64,000 bases of DNA. Source: Verrucomicrobiota bacterium (GTDB lineage Bacteria; Verrucomicrobiota; Verrucomicrobiia; Verrucomicrobiales; Verrucomicrobiaceae). Below are positions 6,107 through 45,769 of the stretch, piece after piece. The notes below the pieces were generated by a model that was not told the DNA's origin, searched no databases, and saw only the letters and a program-made list of their open reading frames with translations. The stretch lies in assembly GCA_025360015.1 (NCBI GenBank), contig JANYCZ010000059.1:1-64000 (forward strand), in the 5' to 3' direction. Numbering within the stretch: the stretch's first letter is position 1; every line of letters starts with the position of its first letter. A program made the translations under genes and the position numbers.

Positions 6107-9100
6107 ATGCTTACCCCTCGCCTCACCCGCCGTCTGCCCGCTTTCATCCTCGGCTGCCTGACGGCGGCGCTGCTGACCAGCCAAGTCATGGCGCAGGGCG
6201 GAGCGTTCATCAATTACACCAACGGCCAGACGTATGCGGCGGGCTACGACACCACCGGATCGATTGTCACCCTCACGCTGACCCTCGGAACGGCCACGCA
6301 GAGTGGCTTGCTCACCGGCAGCGGCAGCGTGCTCAAAGCCGACACTGGCACTCTCATCCTCTCCGCTTCCAATGATTATTCCGGCACCACCACGCTGACT
6401 GCCGGCACCCTCCAGGTGGTGGCCAGCGGGGCCATCTCTCATAGTTCCTCCGACCTCTACGTCGGGAAGCAGTCCGGCGACGTGGCCACCCTGCTCATCT
6501 CCGGCGGCAGCGTCAGCAATGCCAATGGCTATCTAGGCTACGACTCTGGCAGCAACGGCACGGCGATGGTGAGCAGCGGCACCTGGACCAACAACAGCGA
6601 TCTCACCATCGGCAATGACGGCACCGGGGTGCTCAACATCTCCGGCGGCAGCGTCAGCAACGACAACGGCATTCTGGGGGCCAGCAAAGGCAGCAGCGGC
6701 ACGGTGAATGTGAGCAGCGGCACCTGGACCAACAACAGCGATCTCACCATCGGCAATGACGGCACCGGGGTGCTGAACCTTACGGACCAAGGCAAGGTCT
6801 CCGTCAATTCTGGCAACGGCACACTGTACCTGGCGAATAGCAGCGACAGCACCGGCACGCTCAACCTCGGCACCGGCGGCACGGCCGGCATACTGAAAGC
6901 GGCCAGCGTCTCCGGTGGGGACGGCACCGCTGTGGTGAACTTCAACCACACCGGAGTCAACGTCTTCACCCCCACGCTGGGGGGTGCCCTGACGGTGAAC
7001 CAGATCGGCCCCGGCACCACCACGCTCACGGCTGGGAACACATACACCGGCAGCACCCATGTCCTGGGCGGCACGCTGTTGCTGGGCTTTTTCCCATATT
7101 CACCGTCTGCGTCAAACATTCTGCCCAGCACCACGGACCTCACCCTCGGCAGTGGCACGCTCCACGTGAGCAGCTACATCAGCATAATCTTGGTCGGCGG
7201 CGGCATTATCCAGACCGGGAACAGCTTGGCCCCCGCTTTCCAAAGCGACAGCATCATAGTCATCGGGCCTGGAGGTGGAGGTATTTACCCGAGCACCCCT
7301 ACCCAAACCGTGAACAGCTTCTCAACCGCTTTTCAAGGTGGTGGCAGCATCGTGCTGGACATGAACCGAACCTTGGTTCTCGGCACTCTCAACTCCATAG
7401 GCAAGCTCTCCGCAGTGAATTTCAACACCGCCGCCACGGGTGCGAACGGAGCCAACACAGGCAGTGGCGTCATCGTTCTCACCGGCCCGAGCGCCGGTGA
7501 CGCCATCTCTTCAGGCTTCACCGTCACCGATGCCACCGGCTTTGGTCTGGCCACGGTCGATGGCTCGGATCAGGTCATCCGCCTCACCACCACCGCGCTC
7601 CTGCCCGCCAGCGGAGCGGACGCCGGCACAGACTACCTCATCAACAACAATGCGGGAAGCAGTAGCACAGCAGGCAGTTCCTCCCTCCTCATCTCCACTT
7701 CCCAGTCCGCTCGCAGCATCACCGTGGACACCACCGCCGCCTCTGGCGTACTGAGCCTAGCCTCGGGCGTGGTGCTTGGCAGTGATGTCTGGAACTTCGG
7801 CAGCAACGGCAACGGCGGCTTCTTATTCCTGGGCTCTGGCGGCGGCAGCCACACCTTTGAGATCACGGGCAGTGACTCCGGCGCAGGCATCACCACGACC
7901 ACCGCAGGTGGCACCCTCCAGTTCAACAACTACAACGCCTCCCCTGTCACCCTCTCCACCAACATTCTGGACCACGGCACCACTAGCGTACTCTTCCACG
8001 GCCCGGGCACCACGATCCTCACTGGCACGAACATGTACAACGGGGACACCACTGTCTCCAGCGGTGTGCTTCAGGTGGCCGGCTCCGGCTCCATCACCAG
8101 CCTTGGCACCACCACCGTCGGCAGCCAGACGGGCGACAATGCCGTGCTCAACATCCTCGGCCTCGTGCAAGACTTTTCCGCCGTGGTCGGCGACGCCGCT
8201 GGCTCAACCGGCACCGTGAACGTGAATGGAAACGGAGAGTGGGACCAAAAAGACACCCTCACCGTCGGCAATTCCGGCACCGGCGTGCTGAACATTGACG
8301 GCGGCCTTGTCTCCAGCAGAGTCGGCATTCTCGGTGCCAATGCCGACTCCAGCGGCACCGTGACCGTGAGTAACTTCGGGGAGTGGGATGTCTATGGCGG
8401 TCTCTTCATCGGTCAGGACGGCACCGGCGTGCTGAACCTAACCGACGGCGGCGCTGTCTATTTGAACGGGTTTAAAAAGATTGCCGGTGGCACCGTCACC
8501 CTCGGGGCGCAGGGCACGTTGAACTTTGGCACTGGCGGAGCTACTGGCTATTTGTTGGGCACCACGACTGTGACAGGCGACAGCGGTGCCGTGGTGAACT
8601 ACGATTATAACGACTTCGGAAGATTCAAATCTCCGTCCAACCCGGTGCTGACGGGCGATCTGGCGGTGAACAAGCTCGGCGGTGGCTATCTCTTCTTCGA
8701 CCAACAAAACACCTATACCGGCGGTACCACGGTGAACGGTGGCACACTTGAACTCGATTTTTTCAGTGTCAAATCAGACATCATTTCCAGATCCTCCGCC
8801 CTGACCCTGGGCGGCGGCACACTGAGCCTCTACGCTGGAAAAGGCCCCAACAGCCAGACCCTGAACGGCCTCACCACCACCGCAGGCACCGGCAGCCAGA
8901 TCTACCTCAGCTCCAGTGTCACCCTCAATCTGGGCGCGCTCACTTCCGCAGGCAGCGGCTCTGCGCTGAACTTCGACACCTATGACGGCGGCGCGGATGG
9001 TGCCAGAGTGGGCACCGGCATCGTCTTGCTCTCCGGTCAGACCACCGGCAGCGTCATCAATCCCGGCTACACCGTCACCGACTCCACCGGCTTTGGCCTC

Positions 9101-11974
9101 GCCACGGTCAATGACTTCAATCAAATCATCCGCCTCTCCAACACCAGTCTTCTGCCAGACAGCGGTGCTGTCGCAGGCACAGACTACCTCATCGACAACA
9201 ACGACGGCGACAACACGGACCCCGGCAGCTCCATCCTGGAGATCACCGCCTCCCAGACCGCCCGCAGCATCACGGTGGACGCCACCCAATCTGCCGGTCG
9301 GCTCACACTGGACGCCGCCGTCGTCCTCAGCAGTGACGTATGGAATTTCGGCAGCAGCAATGGTTACCCATACGAGATCACCGGCAGCGGCCCCGGCACA
9401 GGCATCACCACGGCCACCGCAGGCGGCATGCTCCAGATCAATAACTACAACTACGGCACAAAAACGACCGTAACCATCTCGGCCCCGATCATGGACAACG
9501 GCGGCAGCGGCCTCCGGGTCGCAGGCACCGGCCTCACCATCCTCACCGGCGCTGACACCTACACCGGGGAAACCATCATCAACGGCGGCACACTCTTCAT
9601 CAATGGCGACCACACGGCTGCCACCGGTGAAATCACTGTGCAGTCCTCCGCCGAACTGGCTGGCACCGGCATGCTCGGCAGCCACATCCACGTGCAGAAT
9701 GGCGGCATCCTGACCCCGGGAAGCATTGCTGCTATCGGCACACTCACCGGGACGACCGCCACCTTTGACACCAACAGCATCTTTCATGTGATAGGCGGCG
9801 GCACCACCCTGAGCAGCCTGCACCTCACCGGCACCGTCACCCTTGCCGCTGGTGCTCTCTTCTACATCGACACCGACTCCCCGCTCACGCTCACCAAATA
9901 CACCCTCATGACCGCCGCCAGCGGCCTGGATGGCAGCACCGCCTTCAATGTGGAGAGCAGTTTCGGGAAGCCGCTGAAGGGCGGCGATGTGCTCCCCGGC
10001 TACCATCTCGTTTACACTGGCAAAACACTTGAACTCGATGCCGATGTCACCGCACCCGCAGTCGCCTACTGGACCGGCAAGGTGGACAACAAATGGTCCT
10101 CCCTCACCTCCGGCAACAGCAACTGGGCTACCGCCGCAGACGGCCTCACCGACACCGCCGCACTCCCTGACTCACCCACAGATGTGACCTTCACCGCCCA
10201 AACCGTCCCCCTCAATACGACGGTCCTCACCGTCCTCGACCTCGACCTCACCATCAACAGCCTCACTGTCAATACGCCCACCATCATTACCGCAAATGGG
10301 GTCATCCTCACCGGGCCTGGTGCTCCACCACTGACCACGCACACGCTCACGGTGACCACCACCACGACGATCAACAGCCAGCTGGGCATCTCTGACGGAG
10401 CCACCCTCATCGACAATGGCACCCTTACCATTGCCAAAGAAGGCAACCTCTATGGCAACGGTGCCGTGCAGATGGCTGCGGATCAATCCATGATCGTCAA
10501 CGGGAGCATTACCGGGCCCATTTCCGACTTCATCGTCCCCGGCGCGCAGGCACTCTCACTCACCACCTCCGGCACCGGTGCCATCATGATGGAAGCAGGC
10601 AGCACTCTTCATCTCAATCTCAACACAGGGGCAGGCCTCGGAGACAACACGGGCATCAGCAGCGCCGCAGGCGTCCTTAATCTCCACGGCATTCTCAATG
10701 CCACCGCAGGAGGCACCCTCGTGCTGGAAAACCACAATGCCATGACCGGCTTTGCCGGCGGCGACCAGTGGAAGGTCATCGATCTCAACAGCGGTGCCGG
10801 TGCCATCACCGGTCACCTCGCCCTCAACGACAGCAGCCTCGGCCTCGCCACCGGCTTCATCGGCACCTTTGACCAGACCACCGGCATCTACAGCATCGCC
10901 GACCACCGCCCTGAAATGACCACGCAAAGCTCCGGCCTGCCCATGGCCAATGCCGAAGGCCAGTCCATCAACTCCGGCGTGCAGACCGCCACCAACGACG
11001 TCAACAACCACCTCTTCAACCTCCGCTCCGGTGGCGGCGAAGAAGACTCGGACGGCAGCATCGCCTCCTCCTTGGATGAAGGCGTGGTCCTCGGCCAGGG
11101 CGACGGCCCCGAAGACCCCATCGCCAAGCGCGTCAAACGCACCCGCCAGTGGGAAGTCTTCACCACCGTCAACTACGGCAACGTCCGCCTCAATCCGATC
11201 AGCAACCAGTCCGGTGTGCAGATCGACTCCTGGGCCTCCAGCGTCGGCGTTGAGCGCCACCTCTCCCGCGGCTTCATGCTCGGCTTTGCCGCCACCTTTC
11301 TGCAAAGCACCCAGAGCTACACCGGCGGCCTCGGCAATCTCCATCTCGAAGGCCCTTCCCTTTCCGCCTACGTCTCCTACGTGCGCAGAAACTACTGGAG
11401 CAGCCTCCTCTACTCCTTTGGCGACTACGACCTCGGCTCCCAGCGCAATCCCGGCCTTGGCCTCCCCACCGCCTCCGGTGCCACCAATGCCTACACCAAC
11501 GCCGTTCAATACAACACCGGCTGGAACTTCCGCTTCCAAAACAACACGCTCATCACCGGCCCCTTCGCCGGCATCGACTACCTCCACGGCACCGTGGACG
11601 CCTACACCGAGACCGGCGGCGGTGCCGGTGCGCTGCACTACGGCAAGCAGACCTTCGAATCCCTCGTCACCCGCATCGGCTGGTCCGCCTCCAAGAAAAT
11701 CGAAACCACCTGGGCCAGCATCATCCCGCAGCTCCGCCTCAGCTACGAGCGCCAGAACCTCAAGAATAACGGCACCAGCGTCAACCTCATCAATGCGCCT
11801 TTCAGCGCCGCTGGCGGCAATCAAAGCCCCGGGCAGGACTACATGGTCATCGGCACCGGCGTAAGCTTCCAGTTCAGCCCCGAGTTCAACCTGGTGCTCG
11901 GCTACCAGACGCAGATCTTCCGCAACAACCTCTCAGCCCACTTCGGCAGCATCCGCTTCGGCTACAGGTTCTAA
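6107..11974 (+). CDS. Giant autotransporter with PATR beta-strand repeats
   Basis: Type Va autotransporter of 1955 residues. A signal peptide (ends near SQVMAQ, residue 28) precedes a long passenger made of autotransporter-associated beta-strand repeats (pattern G-T-L-x-L / YTGGTTVNGGTL; e.g. NTYTGSTHVLGGTLLL and NTYTGGTTVNGGTLELD), predicted to form a right-handed beta-helix on the cell surface. The last 280 or so residues (from RQWEVFTTVNYGNV) form the beta-barrel and end in aromatic RFGYRF, as outer-membrane proteins do. A 47-residue unit containing GTWTNNSDLTIGNDGTGVLN is repeated in tandem, and a segment of about 500 residues is duplicated. No protease or lipase motif is visible in the passenger, so an adhesive or surface-layer role is the reasonable guess. 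Large antisense ORFs are shadows of the biased codon use. Confidence 0.93.
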   Translation: MLTPRLTRRLPAFILGCLTAALLTSQVMAQGGAFINYTNGQTYAAGYDTTGSIVTLTLTLGTATQSGLLTGSGSVLKADTGTLILSASNDYSGTTTLTAGTLQVVASGAISHSSSDLYVGKQSGDVATLLISGGSVSNANGYLGYDSGSNGTAMVSSGTWTNNSDLTIGNDGTGVLNISGGSVSNDNGILGASKGSSGTVNVSSGTWTNNSDLTIGNDGTGVLNLTDQGKVSVNSGNGTLYLANSSDSTGTLNLGTGGTAGILKAASVSGGDGTAVVNFNHTGVNVFTPTLGGALTVNQIGPGTTTLTAGNTYTGSTHVLGGTLLLGFFPYSPSASNILPSTTDLTLGSGTLHVSSYISIILVGGGIIQTGNSLAPAFQSDSIIVIGPGGGGIYPSTPTQTVNSFSTAFQGGGSIVLDMNRTLVLGTLNSIGKLSAVNFNTAATGANGANTGSGVIVLTGPSAGDAISSGFTVTDATGFGLATVDGSDQVIRLTTTALLPASGADAGTDYLINNNAGSSSTAGSSSLLISTSQSARSITVDTTAASGVLSLASGVVLGSDVWNFGSNGNGGFLFLGSGGGSHTFEITGSDSGAGITTTTAGGTLQFNNYNASPVTLSTNILDHGTTSVLFHGPGTTILTGTNMYNGDTTVSSGVLQVAGSGSITSLGTTTVGSQTGDNAVLNILGLVQDFSAVVGDAAGSTGTVNVNGNGEWDQKDTLTVGNSGTGVLNIDGGLVSSRVGILGANADSSGTVTVSNFGEWDVYGGLFIGQDGTGVLNLTDGGAVYLNGFKKIAGGTVTLGAQGTLNFGTGGATGYLLGTTTVTGDSGAVVNYDYNDFGRFKSPSNPVLTGDLAVNKLGGGYLFFDQQNTYTGGTTVNGGTLELDFFSVKSDIISRSSALTLGGGTLSLYAGKGPNSQTLNGLTTTAGTGSQIYLSSSVTLNLGALTSAGSGSALNFDTYDGGADGARVGTGIVLLSGQTTGSVINPGYTVTDSTGFGLATVNDFNQIIRLSNTSLLPDSGAVAGTDYLIDNNDGDNTDPGSSILEITASQTARSITVDATQSAGRLTLDAAVVLSSDVWNFGSSNGYPYEITGSGPGTGITTATAGGMLQINNYNYGTKTTVTISAPIMDNGGSGLRVAGTGLTILTGADTYTGETIINGGTLFINGDHTAATGEITVQSSAELAGTGMLGSHIHVQNGGILTPGSIAAIGTLTGTTATFDTNSIFHVIGGGTTLSSLHLTGTVTLAAGALFYIDTDSPLTLTKYTLMTAASGLDGSTAFNVESSFGKPLKGGDVLPGYHLVYTGKTLELDADVTAPAVAYWTGKVDNKWSSLTSGNSNWATAADGLTDTAALPDSPTDVTFTAQTVPLNTTVLTVLDLDLTINSLTVNTPTIITANGVILTGPGAPPLTTHTLTVTTTTTINSQLGISDGATLIDNGTLTIAKEGNLYGNGAVQMAADQSMIVNGSITGPISDFIVPGAQALSLTTSGTGAIMMEAGSTLHLNLNTGAGLGDNTGISSAAGVLNLHGILNATAGGTLVLENHNAMTGFAGGDQWKVIDLNSGAGAITGHLALNDSSLGLATGFIGTFDQTTGIYSIADHRPEMTTQSSGLPMANAEGQSINSGVQTATNDVNNHLFNLRSGGGEEDSDGSIASSLDEGVVLGQGDGPEDPIAKRVKRTRQWEVFTTVNYGNVRLNPISNQSGVQIDSWASSVGVERHLSRGFMLGFAATFLQSTQSYTGGLGNLHLEGPSLSAYVSYVRRNYWSSLLYSFGDYDLGSQRNPGLGLPTASGATNAYTNAVQYNTGWNFRFQNNTLITGPFAGIDYLHGTVDAYTETGGGAGALHYGKQTFESLVTRIGWSASKKIETTWASIIPQLRLSYERQNLKNNGTSVNLINAPFSAAGGNQSPGQDYMVIGTGVSFQFSPEFNLVLGYQTQIFRNNLSAHFGSIRFGYRF
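6570..6774 (+). repeat. Two 64-bp exact repeats in the passenger
   Basis: The 64-base sequence beginning tgagcagcggcacctggacc occurs identically at 6570-6633 and 6711-6774, 141 bases (47 codons) apart. It encodes the SSGTWTNNSDLTIGNDGTGVL part of the passenger repeat. Perfect identity at the DNA level implies a recent duplication or gene conversion and makes the copy number prone to change. Confidence 0.95.
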
Positions 11975-16175: not shown

Positions 16176-16308
16176 TTGTTGGTAATATCACAGCGCCCCC
16201 CAAGAGTAAACATTTTTGATCTCCGCAGCCCAAGGCGAAACTTGCGTTTTCCCCAGCAAACATTGATCCTGCCCTTCCGTATTGGACAGCCCTTTCGTCC
16301 CAACCCAC

Positions 16309-19300
16309 ATGAAGCAACTGCTCACCCTCCTCCTCGCCCTCACCGCTTCGCTCCACGCGGAGATCGAACTCAAGCAGGGCGACAGCATCGCCATTCTAGG
16401 CAATGCGCTGCCGGACCGCTCGCAATATTCCGGCTGGCTGGAAACCATGCTGACCCAGGCCAATGCCGGCAAGGACCTCACCTTTCGCAATCTGGCCTTC
16501 TCTGGCGATGAGGTGCAAACCTGGCACCGCATCGACAACTTCGGCACGCGTGACGAATGGCTCACGAAGGTGAAGGCGGACGTCATTTTTGCCTTCTACG
16601 GCTTCAATGAATCCTTCAAAGGCTACGAGGGCATCGCGGAGTTCAAAAAGAACCTCGCCAAGTTCCTCGACGACGCCAAGGCGCAAAACTACAGCGGCAA
16701 GGGCGCGCCACGCATCGTCCTCTTCTCACCCATCGCCCTGCAAAAGCTCGCCAGCCCCAGCCTGCCGCCGGTGGACGAAAAGAACACGAACATCCAGAAC
16801 TACACCGCTGCGATGAATGAAGTCGCCGCAGCCAAGGGCGTGACGTTTGTGGATCTCTACCAGCCCAGCGCCAAGGGCCTGCCGGAAGGCTCGACACTCG
16901 ACGGCCTCTACATCACCGACAGCGGTGAAAAGGCCATCGCCGAGGCCGCCTTCAAGTCCCTCACCGGCAAAGACGCCCCGCAGGTGAATGAAAAGCTGCG
17001 CCAGGCCATCAACGACAAAAACTGGGAGTGGCACCAGCGCTACCGCACCGTGGACGGCTACAACGTCTATGGCGGCCGCTCCGGCCTCGCCTACGCCGCC
17101 GGGGTGGGTGGATTCAAGCAGAACGAGCGCAATCCGGAGAAGCCCTACATTTCCAACTACCAGGTCATGATGGAGGAAATGGCCCAGCGCGATGTGAAGA
17201 CCGCCAACCGCGATCTGCGCGTGCACGCCATCGCCAAAGGCGGCGATCTGGTGGTCAAAGACGACAACCTGCCGTCCGTGGAAAAAGTGCCGACGAACAT
17301 GCCCAATCCGAAGGAGGGCAAGGAGTTCAACAAGGTGCCAATGACCGGCATGACATTCACTCCTGAAGGCCTCGTAGAATTTCCCGACGCGAAGGAGGCC
17401 ATGAAAAACATCCAGCCGGAGGCCGGCCTCAAGCTCACGCTTTTTGCCGATGAAAAAATGTTCCCCGAACTCGTGAAGCCGGTGCAGATGGCCTGGGACA
17501 CACGGGGCCGCCTGTGGATCAGCGCCTGGCGGAACTACCCTGAGCGCACGCCAACGAGCACAAAGGGCGACAGCCTGCTCGTCTTTGAAGACACGAACGG
17601 CGACGGCACGGCGGACAAGATGACCGAATTCGCCGACAACCTGAACTGCCCCACCGGATTCAATTTCTACAAGGACGGCGTCATCGTCATGCAGTCGCCA
17701 AATCTCGTGTACCTCGAAGACACCAATGGCGATGGCAAGAGCGACAAGCGCACCATCCTGCTGATGGGCCTGTGCGCCGCCGACTCCCACCATGAAACCA
17801 ACGCGCTGAGCTATGACTGCGGCGGCGCATTGTATCCAAGCGACGGCGTCTTCCACCGCACGCAGGTGGAGACACTCTACGGCCCTGTGCGCAACACCAA
17901 CGGCTGCATCTACCGCTTTGACCTCAACCGCCGCTCGCTCGAACGCTTCACCACGGACGCCACGGTCAATCCGCATGGCAAGACCTGGGACCGCTGGGGC
18001 AATGCATTCTTCACCGACGCCACCGGCAACGTGAACACCTTTGCCGAGGCCTCCTCCTGCTACCTGCCCCGCGAAGGCGGCGGCAGCGCCAAGCTGCAAG
18101 AGTTCTGGAAACGCCCCGCGCGCCCCGGTGCTGGCAACAACATCATCTCCAGCCGCCATTTCCCCGAAGAGTGGCAGAACAATTTTCTCAACTGCAACGT
18201 CATCAGCTTTCAGGGCATCTGGCGCGTGCCGCTCCTGCCAGACGGCTCCGCTTTGAAAGGCGAGGTCAGCAACGAACTCGTGAAGGCCGATCCCGCCGTG
18301 TATCCCACCTTCCGCCCCAGCGCCGTCAGCGTCGGCCCGGATGGCGCGCTGTATTTCTGCGACTGGTCCAACGCCATCATCGGTCACATGCAGCACCATT
18401 TGCGTGACCCCAATCGCGACCACCTGCACGGCCGCATTTACAAGCTGACCTATGAAGGCCGCGACCTGCTCAAGCCCGTGAAGATCCACGGCGAAAGCAT
18501 CGAACACCTGCTTGAAAACCTCAAGGTGTGGGAAGACAACGTGCGCATGCGCAGCAAGATCGAACTCGCCAAGCATGATGCCGCGAAGGTCGCCGCTGCC
18601 GCTAAAACCTGGGCCGCAAAGCTCGATCCGAGCGACAAAGAATACGAGCACCACCGCCTCGAAGCGCTGTGGACGCACCAGTGGGTCGATGTGGTGGACG
18701 TGGATCTGCTCAAAGCCGTTTTGCAATCCCCCGAACCCCGCGCCCGGGCCGCTGCGACGCGTGTGCTTTGCTACTGGAAAGATCGCGTTCCCGGTGCGCT
18801 CGATCTGCTGAAGGTGGCTGTCAATGATCCTGCCATGCCTGTGCGCATGCACGCCGTCCGCGCCCTCAGTTTTTACCAGCCCACGCCCGATGCGGAGAAG
18901 GCGCTGGAGATTGCCTACGACGTGCTCAAGCAGCCCACTGATTACTACATCGACCACGTCTTCAGCGAATCCCGCAAAGGCCTGCAGTCCGTGCTCAAGA
19001 CCAAGATCCTGCCGAAAGACCCCGGCGCGCTGGCCGAATTCATCGCCAAGACCACCAATGCCGATCTCAAGGGCCTGCCTGATCTGGAACCCGTGCTTGT
19101 CGAAAAACTCACGCGCCCGAAAATCACCGCCGATGTCCGCGCCAAAGCGCTCGAAGAGCTCGCCAAGACTAGCGGTGACGACACGCCCGTCGTACTCGTG
19201 AAGATGCTCCAGCGCATCGAAGCCGCCGACGGCAAACTCAACGCCACTGCCGATGACCTTGGCAAGCTCCTGCTTTCGCAATCGCCCAACCTGCTTGCGC

Positions 19301-20256
19301 GTCACGGCACGCTCATCAAGACTCTGGCCAAAGACGCCAAACAAGCCCCCGTGAAACGCGCCTGCTACGCCGCCTACATCGTCGGCGACAAAACGCCTGA
19401 CAATCTCTGGAAAGCCACCACGGACGGCGGCGAGCGCAACTACCTCATCGAAGCCATCGCTCTCATCCCTGCCAACGAAGCCGCTCTGCGCGCCAAGTTC
19501 CAGCCCCATCTCACCACGATGCTGGGAGACGCCAGCCTCGATGGCGGCCGCCTGCGCGCCGTGCTCACCGCCCTGCCCCTCATGGGTGCTGACCATGCAG
19601 GCGCGAATTTCCAGATTGTCGCGCAGCACCTCATCGACGGCAAAGAGCGCAACGCCGCCGCCAAGGCCCTCATGAAGTTCCCCAAGAACAACTGGGACGC
19701 CACCAAGGCGAAGCCCATCACCGATGCCGTGCTCGCCTACGGCAAGACCATCAAGCCCGCCGACCGCAGCAAACCCGAGTACGTCGAAATCATCGCCGCC
19801 GCCAAAGAAATGGCCGCACTGCAGGGAGATGCGGGCAAAGCCATTCTCACCGAACTGAAAACCATCAGCGTCGATGTCTTCGTCGTCCACACCGTGCATG
19901 AGCAGCTCCGCTTCGACACCACCAAACTTGAAGTCACCGCCGGCAAGCAGTTTGAAGTCATCTTCGAAAACGACGACGTCATGCCGCACAATTTTGTGAT
20001 TGTCCCGCCCGGCAAGCACATGGAAGTCGGCACCGCCGCCATGACCATGACGCCTGACAAAGTGGACAAGCAAGGCCGTGCCTTCATGCCCACCGCATTC
20101 GAAAAAGACATCCTCGCCGCCACCAAGCTCCTCGAACCCGGCCAGACCGAAACCGTCAAACTCAAAGCCCCCTCACAACCCGGCGAATACGAATTCGTCT
20201 GCACCTTCCCCGGCCATGCGGTGCTCATGTGGGGCACGCTGAGCGTGGTGAAGTGA
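16309..20256 (+). CDS. SGNH hydrolase - dehydrogenase propeller - HEAT - azurin fusion
   Basis: Secreted multidomain protein of 1315 residues. Signal peptide MKQLLTLLLALTASLHAE; SGNH/GDSL-like hydrolase (about 20-215; GDSIAILGNALPDR, late DGLYITD); from about 365 a beta-propeller of the TIGR02604 membrane-bound-dehydrogenase type (AWDTRGRLWISAWRNYPE, VFEDTNGDGTADK and LEDTNGDGKSDK calcium-like turns); helical HEAT-like repeats from about 740 to 1180; and a C-terminal azurin-like cupredoxin with His1227 (MPHNF), Cys1298, His1303 and Met1307 in CTFPGHAVLM, matching azurin spacing C-x4-H-x3-M. No CxxCH motif is present, although relatives carry a C-terminal haem domain. The start is MKQLL because it begins the signal peptide. 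A 1115-aa antisense ORF is a shadow. Likely a periplasmic or exported oxidoreductase acting on carbohydrate-like substrates; the substrate is unknown. Confidence 0.88.
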   Translation: MKQLLTLLLALTASLHAEIELKQGDSIAILGNALPDRSQYSGWLETMLTQANAGKDLTFRNLAFSGDEVQTWHRIDNFGTRDEWLTKVKADVIFAFYGFNESFKGYEGIAEFKKNLAKFLDDAKAQNYSGKGAPRIVLFSPIALQKLASPSLPPVDEKNTNIQNYTAAMNEVAAAKGVTFVDLYQPSAKGLPEGSTLDGLYITDSGEKAIAEAAFKSLTGKDAPQVNEKLRQAINDKNWEWHQRYRTVDGYNVYGGRSGLAYAAGVGGFKQNERNPEKPYISNYQVMMEEMAQRDVKTANRDLRVHAIAKGGDLVVKDDNLPSVEKVPTNMPNPKEGKEFNKVPMTGMTFTPEGLVEFPDAKEAMKNIQPEAGLKLTLFADEKMFPELVKPVQMAWDTRGRLWISAWRNYPERTPTSTKGDSLLVFEDTNGDGTADKMTEFADNLNCPTGFNFYKDGVIVMQSPNLVYLEDTNGDGKSDKRTILLMGLCAADSHHETNALSYDCGGALYPSDGVFHRTQVETLYGPVRNTNGCIYRFDLNRRSLERFTTDATVNPHGKTWDRWGNAFFTDATGNVNTFAEASSCYLPREGGGSAKLQEFWKRPARPGAGNNIISSRHFPEEWQNNFLNCNVISFQGIWRVPLLPDGSALKGEVSNELVKADPAVYPTFRPSAVSVGPDGALYFCDWSNAIIGHMQHHLRDPNRDHLHGRIYKLTYEGRDLLKPVKIHGESIEHLLENLKVWEDNVRMRSKIELAKHDAAKVAAAAKTWAAKLDPSDKEYEHHRLEALWTHQWVDVVDVDLLKAVLQSPEPRARAAATRVLCYWKDRVPGALDLLKVAVNDPAMPVRMHAVRALSFYQPTPDAEKALEIAYDVLKQPTDYYIDHVFSESRKGLQSVLKTKILPKDPGALAEFIAKTTNADLKGLPDLEPVLVEKLTRPKITADVRAKALEELAKTSGDDTPVVLVKMLQRIEAADGKLNATADDLGKLLLSQSPNLLARHGTLIKTLAKDAKQAPVKRACYAAYIVGDKTPDNLWKATTDGGERNYLIEAIALIPANEAALRAKFQPHLTTMLGDASLDGGRLRAVLTALPLMGADHAGANFQIVAQHLIDGKERNAAAKALMKFPKNNWDATKAKPITDAVLAYGKTIKPADRSKPEYVEIIAAAKEMAALQGDAGKAILTELKTISVDVFVVHTVHEQLRFDTTKLEVTAGKQFEVIFENDDVMPHNFVIVPPGKHMEVGTAAMTMTPDKVDKQGRAFMPTAFEKDILAATKLLEPGQTETVKLKAPSQPGEYEFVCTFPGHAVLMWGTLSVVK

Positions 20257-20271
20257 TATGGCATAGTTGCA

Positions 20272-20371
20272 CGCGGAGCGTCCTGGAGTGCGCCGGTCCT
20301 CCGGCGCTTTCGAACGTCCCCCTGCCCGCGAAAAGCTCCAGAGGGCTAGAGCACTCAAGAACGCTGCCGCG
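20272..20371. repeat. Paired REP-like palindromic element
   Basis: Two related units face each other between the convergent azurin-protein gene and dnaA. The plus unit reads CGCGGAGCGTCCTGGAGTGC followed by the stem GCGCCGG-tcct-CCGGCGC (20290-20307) and CTTTCG. The minus unit, read from 20371 leftwards, begins CGCGGCAGCGTTCTTGAGTGC and also contains GCTTTTCG. The outer arms form an imperfect 20-bp inverted repeat. The element resembles bacterial BIME/REP pairs and probably also acts as a bidirectional transcription stop. Confidence 0.7.
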
Positions 20372-20401
20372 CCTGCCATGCTCCATGCATGGCGAAGAGC
20401 C

Positions 20402-21835
20402 TCAGTTCTCCTTGATCTTCCCCGCCAGTGAATCCAGCGTGCGCTTGAAGTCGTTGGAACCGGTGATGAGGTTGGTGACGACCTTGCAGGCGTGGATGAC
20501 GGTGCCGTGGTCACGGCCACCGAATTCATCGCCAATCTGCACCAGCGGCAGCTTGGTGAGCGTGCGCGTGAGGTACATGGCCACCTGACGCGCTTCGGCG
20601 ATGTTTTTCGGACGTCGCGGGCCGGTGAGGTCGCTGACGCGCAGATCGTAATGCGTGGCGATGATGCGCTGGATGCGGTCCACGGTGACAGTCTTTGACG
20701 GATCCTCGTCGATCACGTCATGCAGCATCGTGGCGAGCGCGGATTCCGTGGGGACGGAGCCTTCCAGCGAGACATGGGCGGCCACACGCATGAGCGCGCC
20801 TTCCAGCTTGCGCACGTTGATGCGGATGCGCTGGGCCATGAAGTCGAGGATCCATGGATCGAGCGAGACATTGAAGTCGCTCTGCTTGCGGCGCAGGATG
20901 GCAATGCGGGTTTCAAAGTCCGGCACCTGGATCTGCGTGGCAAGGCCCCATTCAAAGCGTGAGACGAGACGGCTTTCGAGATTTTTGATCTCGCTCGGCG
21001 GGCGGTCGCTGGCGAGGACAATCTGCTTCGCGTTGTTGAAGAGTTCGTTGAAGGTGTGGAAGAACTCCTCCTGCGTGCTGTCCTTGCCCTCGAAAAATTG
21101 CACATCGTCGATGAGCAGCACATCCACCTTGCGGTATTTCTGGCGGAACTGGCTGAAGGTCTGGCGCTTGATGGCGTCCACAAACTCGTTGGTGAACTGC
21201 TCGGAGGTGACGTAGCGCACGTTGGCACGTGGTTTGCGCGCCAGCACTTCCTGGCCGATGGCCTGTAGGAGATGAGTCTTGCCAAGGCCGGTGGCACCGT
21301 AGAAAAACAGCGGATTGTAGATGCGGCCCGGCTTCTCTGCCACGGCACGGGCCACGGCCACAGAATAGCTGCTGTTCGGGCCGATGACGTAGCTGTCGAA
21401 GTTGAACTTGGCGTTCAGTCCGGCCTCGCTGAAAAAGCGAATCGGCGCATGGTCAGCGGCATTGACACGCGCCGCCTTGAGTTCAGGCAGGGGCGCGAAC
21501 GCAACGGGGGACGCCTCGGTCGCGACGTGGAATTCGATGACCGTCGGCACTCCAGTCACCTCCGCCACCGCATCGGTGACGGCGGCCGTGTGATTGCTCT
21601 CAATCCACAACTGATGGATCGGATTTGGCACGGTGATGACAAACCGGCCATCATCCGCAAGGCGCCCGGAGGTGCCGCTGAAGCAGCGTTGAAAGTTATC
21701 CCCACCCAGGCGCTTCACCAAAACTTCGCACACTTGATCCCAAACCGTGGGGACAGGCGTGAAGAGTTCAGTGTGTGCATGGTGTGCCGATCCGTTGAGA
21801 GAAGTGTTATTCGTGTGTTCATCGTTGCGCGCCAT
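20402..21835 (-). CDS. dnaA: Chromosomal replication initiator DnaA
   Basis: AAA+ initiator protein that melts the chromosomal origin. From MARNDEH it has 477 residues: an N-terminal domain I (VWDQVCEVLVKRLGGDNFQRCF), a linker, AAA+ domain III starting LNAKFNFDSYVIG with Walker A GATGLGKT (about 180-187) and Walker B VLLIDDVQFF, and a C-terminal helix-turn-helix domain IV with the DnaA signature IGDEFGGRDHGTVIHACK. The ORF track begins 21 codons earlier at a TTG (21898); the ATG at 21835 is preferred. dnaN is not adjacent, unlike the classic dnaA-dnaN order. Confidence 0.97.
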   Translation of the reverse strand: MARNDEHTNNTSLNGSAHHAHTELFTPVPTVWDQVCEVLVKRLGGDNFQRCFSGTSGRLADDGRFVITVPNPIHQLWIESNHTAAVTDAVAEVTGVPTVIEFHVATEASPVAFAPLPELKAARVNAADHAPIRFFSEAGLNAKFNFDSYVIGPNSSYSVAVARAVAEKPGRIYNPLFFYGATGLGKTHLLQAIGQEVLARKPRANVRYVTSEQFTNEFVDAIKRQTFSQFRQKYRKVDVLLIDDVQFFEGKDSTQEEFFHTFNELFNNAKQIVLASDRPPSEIKNLESRLVSRFEWGLATQIQVPDFETRIAILRRKQSDFNVSLDPWILDFMAQRIRINVRKLEGALMRVAAHVSLEGSVPTESALATMLHDVIDEDPSKTVTVDRIQRIIATHYDLRVSDLTGPRRPKNIAEARQVAMYLTRTLTKLPLVQIGDEFGGRDHGTVIHACKVVTNLITGSNDFKRTLDSLAGKIKEN

Positions 21836-22161
21836 GATGAGTGTTTCTGGGAGAGTGAGGTCGGAATGAGGTTGAGAAGCGATGTCGAAGAATTTCAAAC
21901 GGGAGCAATCAGAAGGCCATTGAATATCTTTTTAAATGACGACGCTTTGTATGTCGAAAACGACACGTGAAACAAGCTCTTCTTCGATATATTTTTAAAG
22001 TTTTGATGCGGGCATCGTAAAACATTTAAAAATAAATTCCCATTGGAATGTGGCGTGGACCGTGAAGATCCTGCGAATAGCCGTTTGCAACACAATAGAC
22101 ACGCAAAATACGTGCATGATTTGCCATAGATGCTGTCATGCGCCGGGCTGTGCCGTCGGCA
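21836..22161. promoter_or_regulatory. AT-rich region upstream of dnaA with imperfect palindrome
   Basis: A gene-free stretch of 326 bases, with 21905-22050 strongly AT-rich against the high-GC background. It contains the imperfect palindrome ATTTTTAAA-GTTTT-GATGC / GCATC-AAAAC-TTTAAAAAT at 21991-22033. It must hold the dnaA promoter. The palindrome could also end transcription of the DUF3500 gene coming from the right, be a regulator site, or be part of an origin unwinding region. I found no TTATCCACA-type DnaA box, so an origin assignment is not supported. Confidence 0.5.
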
Positions 22162-42451: not shown

Positions 42452-42491
42452 TTTTCAAGATGATGGGCGGAAGGGTGCCATGAGCCGATGA

Positions 42492-42535
42492 GGCTGACAT
42501 CGCGGCTTATTTGCGTACCGGCAAATAATCGGCAA
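42492..42535 (+). repeat. Direct repeat, duplicated 3' end of the cytochrome gene
   Basis: This segment differs from 41690-41733 at only three of 44 positions and still spells ADIAAYLRTGK-stop in one frame, although no cytochrome gene is here. It shows that a unit of about 800 bases, running from the end of the cytochrome gene through the lipoprotein gene, was duplicated in tandem. Confidence 0.9.
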
Positions 42536-42604
42536 ACATCCGATCCGTCGGTCCTGTCACATTCGCTCAATGCAGTGCCGATGACAAAGCTCCAACCTCC
42601 CTCC

Positions 42605-43342
42605 ATGATCTTCCTCCGCTTCGGCGTTCTTGCAGCCGCCATCACTCTCTGCAGTTGCAGCCTTTCCACCGCGCCCGAGCCGCCTGAGTTCAAATTGTCC
42701 GCCGCAGCTCTCGGCAAGCAGTATCGTGCGACGCGCAAGACCGGCTCGGTGAGCCTGTACGCCGGCAAAATTAAGACCTCGCGGGACGAGTGGGGGCGAG
42801 AGACTCACCTTGCCAGCGGTGGCGCGCTGCTGGTGAAGGAGACCTCGCCGCCCATTCTGGCGCTGGCTCCCAGCATCTCGATCACTCCGGAGTTTTCCGA
42901 AGTGCGCGGGCAATCCACGGTGAAGAAGAATGATCTGCTCTACCTCGGGCAGGACGAGTCCACGGCCATCCGAATCGACGGTACTGCCATCACGCCGGAA
43001 GGATCGTATCTCATTCGCGCCATCGCCGCAGCCGAAGTCGATCCACCCACGGGGATTGAACGCGCAGACGCGGTGGCCACCAGTCTCGCCTACGTCCCCA
43101 CCTTTGGCGCGAAGGAAGCCCCGGCTGCAACACCTCCGAGTGAGCCGGTGGAGGTGAAGCCAAAGACGGTTTCAAAGCCCAAGCGCAAGGCCCGGCCGAG
43201 CCCGGCCAGAAAGCCAGCTTCTGAGGTGGTCAAAGCCAGTGCTCCCCCGCCAGCGCCAGCGCCAGCGCCCAAGCCGAAGGCAGCACCTACGGTGGACCGC
43301 TCCAAGTTACTTAATTTGATGCGCGAGCCTACGGTCCGGTGA
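42605..43342 (+). CDS. Lipoprotein, second copy of the tandem pair
   Basis: A 245-residue lipoprotein, lipobox LCSC (AAITLCSCSLSTAPEPPEF), paralogous to the preceding gene over the folded domain (LYAGKIKTSRDEWGRETHLASGGALLVKE ... ITPEFSEVRGQSTVKKNDLLYLG) and at the C-terminus (VDRSKLLNLMREPTVR). Its Pro/Ala/Lys linker is longer (SPARKPASEVVKASAPPPAPAPAPKPK). An in-frame ATG at 42581 would add eight residues and lengthen the signal peptide n-region; the ORF track start at 42488 lies in the duplicated cytochrome remnant and is not credible. Confidence 0.78.
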   Translation: MIFLRFGVLAAAITLCSCSLSTAPEPPEFKLSAAALGKQYRATRKTGSVSLYAGKIKTSRDEWGRETHLASGGALLVKETSPPILALAPSISITPEFSEVRGQSTVKKNDLLYLGQDESTAIRIDGTAITPEGSYLIRAIAAAEVDPPTGIERADAVATSLAYVPTFGAKEAPAATPPSEPVEVKPKTVSKPKRKARPSPARKPASEVVKASAPPPAPAPAPKPKAAPTVDRSKLLNLMREPTVR

Positions 43343-43405: not shown

Positions 43406-43553
43406 GAAACCGCACTCGGAGAGTGCGGACCACTCCACTAGGGGGACTTGCACGCCTTGGGCAGCGCGCGGTCATGCGCGATGCTGAGCATGCAATCCTC
43501 TGGGTGTTTTCGACTGCCCTGAAACCGCACTCGGAGAGTGCGGACCACTCCAC
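43406..43553. repeat. Two REP-like palindromic units, direct repeat
   Basis: A 33-base sequence beginning gaaaccgcactcggagagtg is found identically at 43406-43438 and 43521-43553, 115 bases apart. Each contains the perfect stem CCGCACTC-gga-GAGTGCGG. The similarity continues weakly beyond it (cacgcct...gcgcggtcat...gctga). Read on the minus strand the units have the form GGAGTG-stem-GTTTC, like the element at 20272-20371. They fill the convergent space between the second lipoprotein and the LysM gene. Confidence 0.85.
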
Positions 43554-43616
43554 GAGTTGGCCTTACCACGCCTCTGCAGCTCGCGGTCATCCGCGCTGCT
43601 GATCCCGCCGTTCCGC

Positions 43617-44261
43617 TCAATAGGGCCAGCGGAAGGGTTCGTTGGTGATCAGTTTGCTTTTGGGGTAGGCGGCGATGCGGACCTGGTTGTGGGAGTTGCC
43701 GCTGAGGAGCCAGACGTTGGTGTCGTCTTCGGCGTGCAGGAAGCCGATGTGGCCGCTGCCGGCCTGGTCCACGGTGAGAGGCTGCATGATGCAGATGGAG
43801 CCGTAGGCGGGAACGACCGGGCGGCCCCAGCCCCACCAGTCGGAGACGCGGGCGCTGTGCTGGGGCTTGTAGCCGGAGCGCAGGACGCACCAGTTCACAA
43901 AGGCAGCGCACCAGGCGGTTTCGTCATGCAGCAGATTGCCGGCGATGCCACAGCTCTGCAAATACTCGAGGATGCGCGGGTTGTCGCCGCTGGCCCATTC
44001 CTGCACACCGACCTCCATGATGGCGATCTGCATCCAGGGCGGCGGCGCGGCAAAATCCGTCGGCGCACTCGCGGCGGGTGCATCCACAGGACCGCCCGCT
44101 CCGGCGTCGTCCACATTCACGAGCTGGCCGGGAAACAGCACCTTCCAGTTGCCCCATTCGACCAGATCAGGATTGGAAGCCTGAAATTGATCGAGCGTCA
44201 TGCCAAAGGACGCTGCGATTTTGGAGGGATTGTCGCCGGGCTGAACGGAGTATTGGGCCAT
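43617..44261 (-). CDS. LysM plus amidase-like (CHAP/NlpC-type) protein
   Basis: A 214-residue protein from MAQYSVQPGDN. The N-terminal LysM motif (YSVQPGDNPSKIAASFGMTLDQFQASNPDL ... GQLVNV) binds peptidoglycan. After an Ala/Pro linker, the C-terminal domain (ETAWCAAFVNWCVLRSGY, GSGHIGFLH, LLSGNSHNQVRI) matches the TIGR02594/CHAP-like cysteine amidase pattern with Cys in WCAAF, His in GHIGF and Asn in GNSHN. There is no signal peptide, so it needs lysis or a holin, or another export route. Divergent from the Rep gene. A longer start at 44300 adds 13 residues without a signal sequence. It could be a phage-type lysin, a cell-wall enzyme or a toxin. Confidence 0.8.
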   Translation of the reverse strand: MAQYSVQPGDNPSKIAASFGMTLDQFQASNPDLVEWGNWKVLFPGQLVNVDDAGAGGPVDAPAASAPTDFAAPPPWMQIAIMEVGVQEWASGDNPRILEYLQSCGIAGNLLHDETAWCAAFVNWCVLRSGYKPQHSARVSDWWGWGRPVVPAYGSICIMQPLTVDQAGSGHIGFLHAEDDTNVWLLSGNSHNQVRIAAYPKSKLITNEPFRWPY

Positions 44262-44749
44262 GAGCTGACCACTGCCGTAGCAAGCTGAAGACTTCAACAA
44301 TCAAAAGCGATGGCGCGACCACGCGCACTCAGTCGCAGCCGCGCAAGTCGCGGCTCCTCGCATACTCGGGCTTCGCAGCCAACCCGTTTCGCAGGAGGTT
44401 CTCATTTCCGAGGTTGCCGGGGACTAACCACTATTCAGGGCCGGGGCCTGGCTTGATGCCATGCCTCCGGCCCGGTGGTCACGATGCGTTCATGATGCCG
44501 CCGCTCCCTGCATTCCTGCCGGTGCGCTGTGGCCTGCAACCTTCACGCCGTGCGCCCCCATGCCCCTTTCATGTCCTTCTGCTGCAACAACCACAACCAC
44601 CGCGACACCCTCAGCCCGGCAGGCCGGGAAGGAAGCCGGAGGCGCTTTCCCCGGCCTGCCGGGCCGGGGCTGCGGGCTTGTCTAAGCAGCATAATAGAAC
44701 ACTCACCCCACATGCCCCGGCAACGTTGCGCTGGTTCCCCGGTGCGTCG
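44262..44749. other. Stem-loop-rich region between the LysM and Rep genes
   Basis: The 488 bases between two divergent genes hold at least three stem-loops: AGCCGCG-caagt-CGCGGCT (44337-44355); an imperfect 15-16-bp hairpin with loop ttgat (44438-44473); and a perfect 15-bp inverted repeat GCCCGGCAGGCCGGG / CCCGGCCTGCCGGGC with a 21-base loop (44614-44664). The last lies 85 bases before the TTG start chosen for Rep. It is a candidate nick site or double-strand origin for the HUH protein, or a regulator of its expression. The two outer promoters should also lie here. Confidence 0.6.
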
Positions 44750-45769
44750 TTGATTGATATTGAGCTGCCTGCGCACCACTCGGACATACGGAAGCGCAAG
44801 CAGCAGCCCCGGGGCCGCATCAAGGAATGGAGCGCCGCCAGCCGCTCCCGTTTGAAGCACACCCTCGGCAGGCTCCAGCGCAAGGAACTGGGCCGCGCCA
44901 TGCTCGTCACCCTCACCTATCCGTTGGAGTGCCCGGCACCCGATGACCACGAAGTTTACAAGGCCCATCTGCACCGGTTCAACATGGCCTTGCGCCGCCG
45001 CTGGCCGCTCTGCTCGGGCATCTGGAAGCTGGAGTTCCAGACACGCGGCGCCGCGCATTACCACTTCATGCTCTTCGGCCTGCATGACGAACCGCTCGAA
45101 GCTCTGCACACCTGGACACGCAAGACCTGGTATCGCATCGCCCACAATGGCGACAAGCATCTGGGCGCATCATGCGAAAAGGTTGAACCGGTTAAAAGCA
45201 CCGGCGGTTCCATGGGCTATTTTGCCAAGTATATCGGCAAGGGAGATCAGACCATGCCGGGGAACTTCAGCGGCAGATACTGGGGCAAGGTCAATGCTGC
45301 ACACCTTCCCACCGCTGCTTCAAAGAGCATCGAGGTGCCGCACAAAATCGCCGCCACCATCCGCCGCATCGCTCGCAAAAAGATGCAGAGCGATGTCAAC
45401 ACCGCCTGCTGGAAGCGCTGGCTGGAGCACCGGCGCAAGGACGGGTTCCGGTTCAGCCGCTTGCAATGGGAGCGCGCCATGGGCCAGCACCACGGCGGCG
45501 CTCAGCGCATCGCCCTTTGGGAGCACGTACCCGCCGTGCGGTTCTTCGATGAGGGCGAGTGGTGGCACCTTTCCGCCCACCACCTGCGCATGCGCTACGA
45601 CCTCGACCACTTCCAGCAAATCATGAAGGACCACCCGCTGCCCAAACGCTGGCGGCTCCGCGACAATGACCGCGTCCGCCTGCTCTGCGACGCCTCCTCG
45701 TTCATCGCCGCTCTCGCTCGGCTGGACAAGCCGGAGGGGTGTTTTCTGACGTTCTCTCAAGCGGGTTGA
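44750..45769 (+). CDS. Rolling-circle replication initiator (HUH endonuclease)
   Basis: HUH-superfamily Rep protein, 339 residues from the TTG codon at 44750. The three Rep motifs are present in order: motif 1 LVTLTYP (52-58), metal-binding HYH (His103-Tyr-His105 in GAAHYHFMLFG), and catalytic YFAKYIGKG with Tyr157 and Tyr161 spaced as in two-tyrosine initiators such as the phiX174 A protein. GRYWGKV follows at about 178. Such enzymes nick DNA at an origin and remain linked to the 5' end. The ORF track starts 336 bases earlier, but that part is low-complexity, contains the long inverted repeat and lacks protein-like pattern. No capsid, coat or relaxase gene accompanies it in the window. Confidence 0.82.
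   Translation: MIDIELPAHHSDIRKRKQQPRGRIKEWSAASRSRLKHTLGRLQRKELGRAMLVTLTYPLECPAPDDHEVYKAHLHRFNMALRRRWPLCSGIWKLEFQTRGAAHYHFMLFGLHDEPLEALHTWTRKTWYRIAHNGDKHLGASCEKVEPVKSTGGSMGYFAKYIGKGDQTMPGNFSGRYWGKVNAAHLPTAASKSIEVPHKIAATIRRIARKKMQSDVNTACWKRWLEHRRKDGFRFSRLQWERAMGQHHGGAQRIALWEHVPAVRFFDEGEWWHLSAHHLRMRYDLDHFQQIMKDHPLPKRWRLRDNDRVRLLCDASSFIAALARLDKPEGCFLTFSQAG

Follow-up and report, generated by a model that had tools for sequence, protein, structure and literature searches.

The palindromic elements of the window, by which we mean the whole 64,000-nucleotide stretch analysed (C17:1-64000 of its own genome, G000), are very probably REPs of two separate REP-RAYT systems, both of which have left copies there: the element at 20272 would be an inherited orphan, and the units at 43406 and 43521 would belong to a system whose RAYT is present in the genome. 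This genome is a Prosthecobacter-like member of the Verrucomicrobiota, assembled as 6.61 Mb in 79 contigs. The REP/RAYT identity is well supported. The elements are short GC-rich palindromes with an unpaired head, multicopy and mostly intergenic; inverted pairs were found in the window (20285/20359), in the BIMEs around the RAYT gene L048 and in the pairs around the RAYT gene L049. RAYT genes flanked by cognate copies were found at L048, L049, L118, L136, L215 and other loci, and the encoded proteins have an HUH plus single-Tyr Y1 domain and are related to TnpA-REP. An Rfam search of the window gave no match.

The element at 20272, which we assign to class A, lies between convergent genes as follows.

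16282..20256, + strand: left neighbour of the BIME, a PVC-type heme-binding protein with a C-terminal azurin domain
20271..20372, no strand assigned: class-A BIME/REPIN, two inverted hairpins within an outer inverted repeat (GCGGAGCGT... / ...AACGCTGCCGCGC), from sequence and folding
20285..20311, + strand: class-A unit 1, foot GGAGT, stem GCGCCGG/CCGGCGC, loop TCCT, then TTTC; sequence GGAGTGCGCCGGTCCTCCGGCGCTTTC
about 20333..20359, - strand: class-A unit 2, (T)GAGT, stem GCTCTAG/CTGGAGC, loop CCCT, then TTTTC; sequence (T)GAGTGCTCTAGCCCTCTGGAGCTTTTC
20402..21898, - strand: right neighbour, convergent, dnaA (TIGR00362, 494 bits)

Folding of 20271-20372 as single-strand DNA gave z values of -2.9 (+) and -3.9 (-), and the two-unit plan is shared with the 167-bp BIMEs that flank L048. 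Class-A units consist of GGA(G/C)T, a stem of the form GC…GC and TTT. The stem of unit 2 contains one G-T pair, a slight decay from GGAGTGCTCCAGTCCTCTGGAGCTTT, and at 20359 the first G of GGAGTG has been lost; the intact version of this unit adjoins dnaA in two other genomes (G021 and G012) and also lies beside cognate RAYTs. With up to 2 mismatches, the 20285 unit was present in 27 of the 35 genus genomes, where the reversed-pattern control gave 0 matches, and its own genome held only two copies of this type. Both stems of the window BIME (GCGCCGG-TCCT-CCGGCGC and GCTCCAG-TCCT-CTGGAGC) flank RAYTs L118 (G021), L136 (G013), L215 (G012) and L221 (G008), the last with the unit-1 stem and loop on one side, and both flank L123 (G007) with one loop change. 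The window's own genome yielded no RAYT flanked by these stems, and since only the two copies occur there, the BIME is best read as an inherited, slightly decayed orphan.

The own genome does encode class-A RAYTs with other stems. L048 (C39:108.5 kb) specifies a protein of 189 aa with the motifs NHYH, VWHN and YTHQNP and sits between two 167-bp BIMEs that are 99% identical and whose first unit is GGAGTGCGGTGGGAAGCGAAGCGCCACACCGCTTTC. Used as a genome query, the L048 BIME gave 77 matching pieces in at least 30 separate places, the places being fewer because many pieces are one place matched on both strands. A second class-A RAYT, in contig C59, carries the different stem GCGGTGC-TTCA-GCACCGC. 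The L048 protein passes the NCBIfam model NF047646 REP_Tyr_transpos (85.2 against a cut-off of 80), a model matched by 18 of 18 class-A proteins examined; L118 (class A) and L049 (class B) score below that cut-off. The sole relative of the L048 protein in the PDB is E. coli TnpA-REP, 4ER8 (E 9.8e-7; profile 4.1e-11).

Class-A loci with the GGA(G/C)T foot were found in Verrucomicrobiota, Planctomycetota (Fuerstiella, Planctomyces, Phycisphaerae), Lentisphaerae/Victivallales, Kiritimatiellota, Gallionellales and Lysobacterales, and single taxon assignments may be wrong because most of these genomes are MAGs. One unit with this foot reached up to 61 copies per genome, with 0 matches to the reversed control. 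In a Lysobacterales MAG (L304), the downstream flank carries five class-A units arrayed at 42-bp spacing after the RAYT, and in the genome of L307 (G068) the main class-A unit has a variant with a compensatory G-C to T-A change, GGACTGCTGCAGCCTGCTGCAGC, at about 20 copies.

The second site, which we assign to class B, comprises a direct rather than an inverted pair.

42488..43342, + strand: left neighbour of the pair, no family match
43406..43436, - strand: class-B REP, foot GTGG, stem CCGCACTC/GAGTGCGG, loop TCC; sequence GGAGTGGTCCGCACTCTCCGAGTGCGGTTTC
43406..43602, - strand: tandem pair of 82-nt units (family D5) containing both class-B REPs, 82% identity
43521..43551, - strand: second class-B REP, identical GGAGTGGTCCGCACTCTCCGAGTGCGGTTTC, 115 bp away, a local direct duplication
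43617..44300, - strand: right neighbour, convergent, LysM/CHAP-type TIGR02594 protein

Adjoining the LysM/CHAP gene is a 451-aa ORF (44414-45769, +) with a match to PF23343 REP_ORF2-G2P, a replication-protein family; elsewhere in the window, a large ORF of 1955 aa (6107-11974, +) contains direct repeats of 141 and 273 nt. Like 43406/43521, the pair at 211300/211433 is a local direct duplication.

With up to 2 mismatches, 18 copies of the 43406 unit were found in the own genome, with 0 control matches, and the unit also occurs in nine other genus genomes. Ten of the 18 lie in C56:121-143 kb or C68:1-28 kb, that is, around the class-B RAYT L049 (C56:142.2 kb; motifs NHVH, WQ and YIAENP). The exact 43406 stem flanks L049 on both sides, in one inverted pair upstream and in a second pair downstream, which the contig end truncates. 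Thus both the further copies and the RAYT genes that were to be looked for were found in this genome. The end of C56 and the start of C68 (L152, L153) share a 16-nt overlap inside a class-B REP; because of this overlap the two contigs may adjoin, and the assembly probably broke at a class-B repeat beside its RAYT. Many other REP-RAYT systems coexist in the genome, which contains 23 PF01797 Y1_Tnp frames. The Y1_Tnp genes L032, L037, L046, L050 and L053 have GTAG-footed REPs of their own, for example GTAG-CCGTGGGTG and GTAG-CGCGGAAT, and at L039 a near-perfect palindrome of 28 bp, GGAGTGGGGGTCGGGAGACCCCCACTCC, with a foot at each end (C17:155111-155138), comes after a RAYT-like gene.

Copies were counted by pattern and DNA searches. 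Scanned loosely for GGAGTG hairpins, contig C17 gave 37 matches, no more than with permuted motifs, and stricter frames were then used. The preliminary description had seen REP-like palindromes whose stems vary while pairing is kept, and this was borne out: among 196 stretches picked solely by GGA[GC]TGC-N14-GCTTT, 195 had at least three of the four unselected inner pairs, compared with 2 when partners were shifted by one base. Pairing holds in 94.3% of cells over the 35 distinct stems; double-change cells numbered 51 against 13.5 in shuffles, and the covariation score was 0.589 against 0.174, a level reached in 0 of 500 shuffles. RAYT protein distance was correlated with stem distance (Mantel r of 0.55 for class A and 0.49 for class B, 0 of 2000 permutations), a test that leaves host phylogeny in, yet the two class-A RAYTs of one genome bear different stems.

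The feet followed the RAYT class. A simple GGA[GC]T hairpin lay within 320 nt in 66 of 98 class-A RAYT loci (on both sides in 47) and GT[AG]G in 11 of 98, while class-B loci had GT[AG]G in 30 of 36 and GGA[GC]T in 3 of 36; these counts are of loci, not independent lineages, and include near-duplicates of one genome that entered via two collections. Background in far-flank windows was 2/200 for GGA[GC]T and 9/200 for GT[AG]G, so that GT[AG]G at class-A loci is near background. The scan gave no simple GGA[GC]T hairpin at 32 of the 98 class-A loci, some of which, including L048, have long interrupted stems that it misses. The feet observed were GGA[GC]T and GT[AG]G; CGTC was not among them.

The residues W94, Q95, E100, H101 and R104 have been named in connection with GTAG reading by TnpA-REP (PMC6006769). 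In an alignment to 4ER8, the only structure in the PDB related to either protein, class B retains W94, Q95, H101 and R104 and has D in place of E100, on a weak match (E 0.057). In class A, W94 and E100 are retained and T stands at 101 and 104; from the alignment, these changes at the H101/R104 positions appear as a correlate of the foot change, not a proof. A change of WQ to WH as the cause of the tag change was rejected, since GGACT-tagged class-A members keep WQ. The larger reading of these data is a third tagged REP superfamily with a GGA(G/C)T foot and a RAYT clade of its own (E100 kept, T for H101/R104), and hence a REP-transposase guide code that has been rewritten in nature; we consider the balance even between this proposal being right and being wrong.

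The elements differ between genomes in occupancy of orthologous gaps. The BIME is present in the convergent gap between dnaA and the azurin-domain gene in G000, G001 and G031 and absent in G004, where another hairpin, CCGCTTCACTCAG...CTGAGTGAAGCGG, occupies the gap; in G021 and G012 the BIME follows dnaA, although the azurin-domain gene was not located there. From this pattern of presence and absence, the BIME at this site has a long history in the group, and G004 has either lost it or never acquired it. At 43.4 kb, the convergent gap lacks the class-B REP in G030, G004, G021, G008 and G058, and in G031 it holds GTAG REPs with a different stem. Mobility of the elements is suggested by the orthologous gaps without them and by the gap that holds another REP family, evidence that consists of comparisons of presence and absence between species, not of observed events. 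Copy number does not cleanly follow the cognate RAYT: 20285-type copies are numerous in G005, G011 and G029, and G030, G012 and G021 hold class-B copies, with no close cognate RAYT found in these genomes. Since the assemblies are drafts, cognate RAYTs may be missing from them or lost.

Several other explanations were weighed against two REP-RAYT systems. That the hairpins are ordinary intrinsic terminators, selected at the 3' ends of convergent genes, would suit the position of both window sites, the location of most copies near gene 3' ends and the other hairpin seen in the G004 gap. However, a scan for intrinsic terminators (hairpin plus T tract) at 20200-20450 found 0, and terminators would not predict conserved feet, two-unit BIMEs, RAYT flanking or the presence and absence in orthologous gaps. 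Placement between convergent genes, which had been proposed as typical, held for both window sites and not across the genome: of the 37 own-genome copies with both neighbours called (by simple codon-usage gene calls, 85% coding), 14 were between convergent, 22 between co-directional and 1 between divergent genes, against expected length shares on C17 of 0.257, 0.544 and 0.199. Divergent gaps were depleted (P = 0.003), and the convergent enrichment was not significant (P = 0.07). With 22 of 37 copies between co-directional genes, we give the terminator explanation hardly any credence. Only marginally less improbable is a single REP family with a GGAGTG...TTTC frame, as first described for the four units. 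The six-base left flank and the TTTC right flank do agree in the window copies, apart from the lost first G of unit 2, but class-B relatives have the left feet GGAGTGG, GGCGTGG, GAAGTGG, AAAGTGG and AAAGTAG and GTGTCC on the right, so that neither GGA nor TTTC is conserved in class B and its constant part is GT(G/A)G beside the stem. Since only this known head is constant, the GGAGTG and the TTTC common to both classes are largely coincidence. The class-A and class-B RAYTs are only distantly related and barely alignable (22 of 88 residues identical), and a common origin of the four units was rejected on the differing feet, GGA(G/C)T and GT(G/A)G, and this low identity; the one family thus resolves into two classes.

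The repeats might also move without a RAYT, by recombination or local duplication, the RAYT merely sitting among them. The two local direct duplications fit such movement, as do the genomes with many copies and no cognate RAYT detected. It is nevertheless unlikely, if less so than the preceding two, given the exact match of RAYT lineages to the stems of their flanking units, the Mantel result, and the spread of copies over many contigs, where their flanks are unrelated. Under two REP-RAYT systems, a REP on single-stranded DNA would fold into a hairpin preceded on its 5' side by a short unpaired foot, and the cognate RAYT/TnpA-REP, an HUH single-tyrosine endonuclease, would recognise the foot-hairpin, cut, and copy or move the element. 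For the class-A BIME the foot would be GGA(G/C)T and the cognate RAYT the one that sits between matching stems in congeners; for class-B REPs it would be the canonical GT(G/A)G, read by L049, around which the copies are concentrated. We infer recognition, cleavage and mobilisation by the RAYT from work on E. coli TnpA-REP, and any cellular role of the elements is likewise putative.

Both classes resemble the REP/BIME (REPIN) and RAYT systems of gammaproteobacterial type, which have the head GT(A/G)G (Nunvar 2010, PMC2817692; Bertels and Rainey 2011, PMC3116915), in their intergenic palindromes, unpaired head, inverted pairs, RAYT with cognate flanks and stem-RAYT covariance; class B has the canonical head, whereas the class-A foot is GGA(G/C)T. 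Most REPs have been sorted into GTAG and CGTC superfamilies, with GTAG repeats in the verrucomicrobium Opitutus terrae (Di Nocera 2013, PMC3733652). Short tagged stem-loops, dimers and several families per genome are common to those and to our elements, and class B fits GTRG, but class A fits neither superfamily. Among TnpA-Y1 proteins, GT[AG]G feet are known in subclasses 2.2, 2.4, 2.5, 2.7 and 2.8, and other feet in subclass 2.6 and class 3 (CnGA) (Quentin 2018, PMC6006769). Class-A RAYTs share NHYH with subclass 2.8 (NHYH, W[YH], YIHYNP, GT[AG]G REPs), and many members have W then H, but their tyrosine motif is YxHxN(A/P), their foot is not GT[AG]G, some members have WQ, and they occur in several other phyla; they do not belong to that subclass. 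Class 3 of Planctomycetes (PMC6006769) likewise has a RAYT-like gene flanked by non-GTAG hairpins, but with the foot CnGA and a Y----Q signature, neither of which class A has. A literature search for class-A sequence words gave no match, and we found no description of the GGA(G/C)T foot in the papers compared, Quentin 2018 in its main text among them; its supplementary tables may hold an earlier listing. As far as checked, this foot looks like a new variant within known REP/RAYT systems. Class-A repeats would escape any scan in which GT[AG]G is obligatory, such as that of the published survey (PMC6006769). With its numerous RAYTs in each genome and both occupied and empty gaps, this genus should also be useful for the study of REP turnover outside Proteobacteria. 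In target choice by TnpA-REP, the foot is essential in E. coli and loosely needed in other systems (PMC8266576); class A, a clade found in nature whose foot differs but is kept consistently, with changes to match at the residues that read the foot, offers a ready comparison for target reading.
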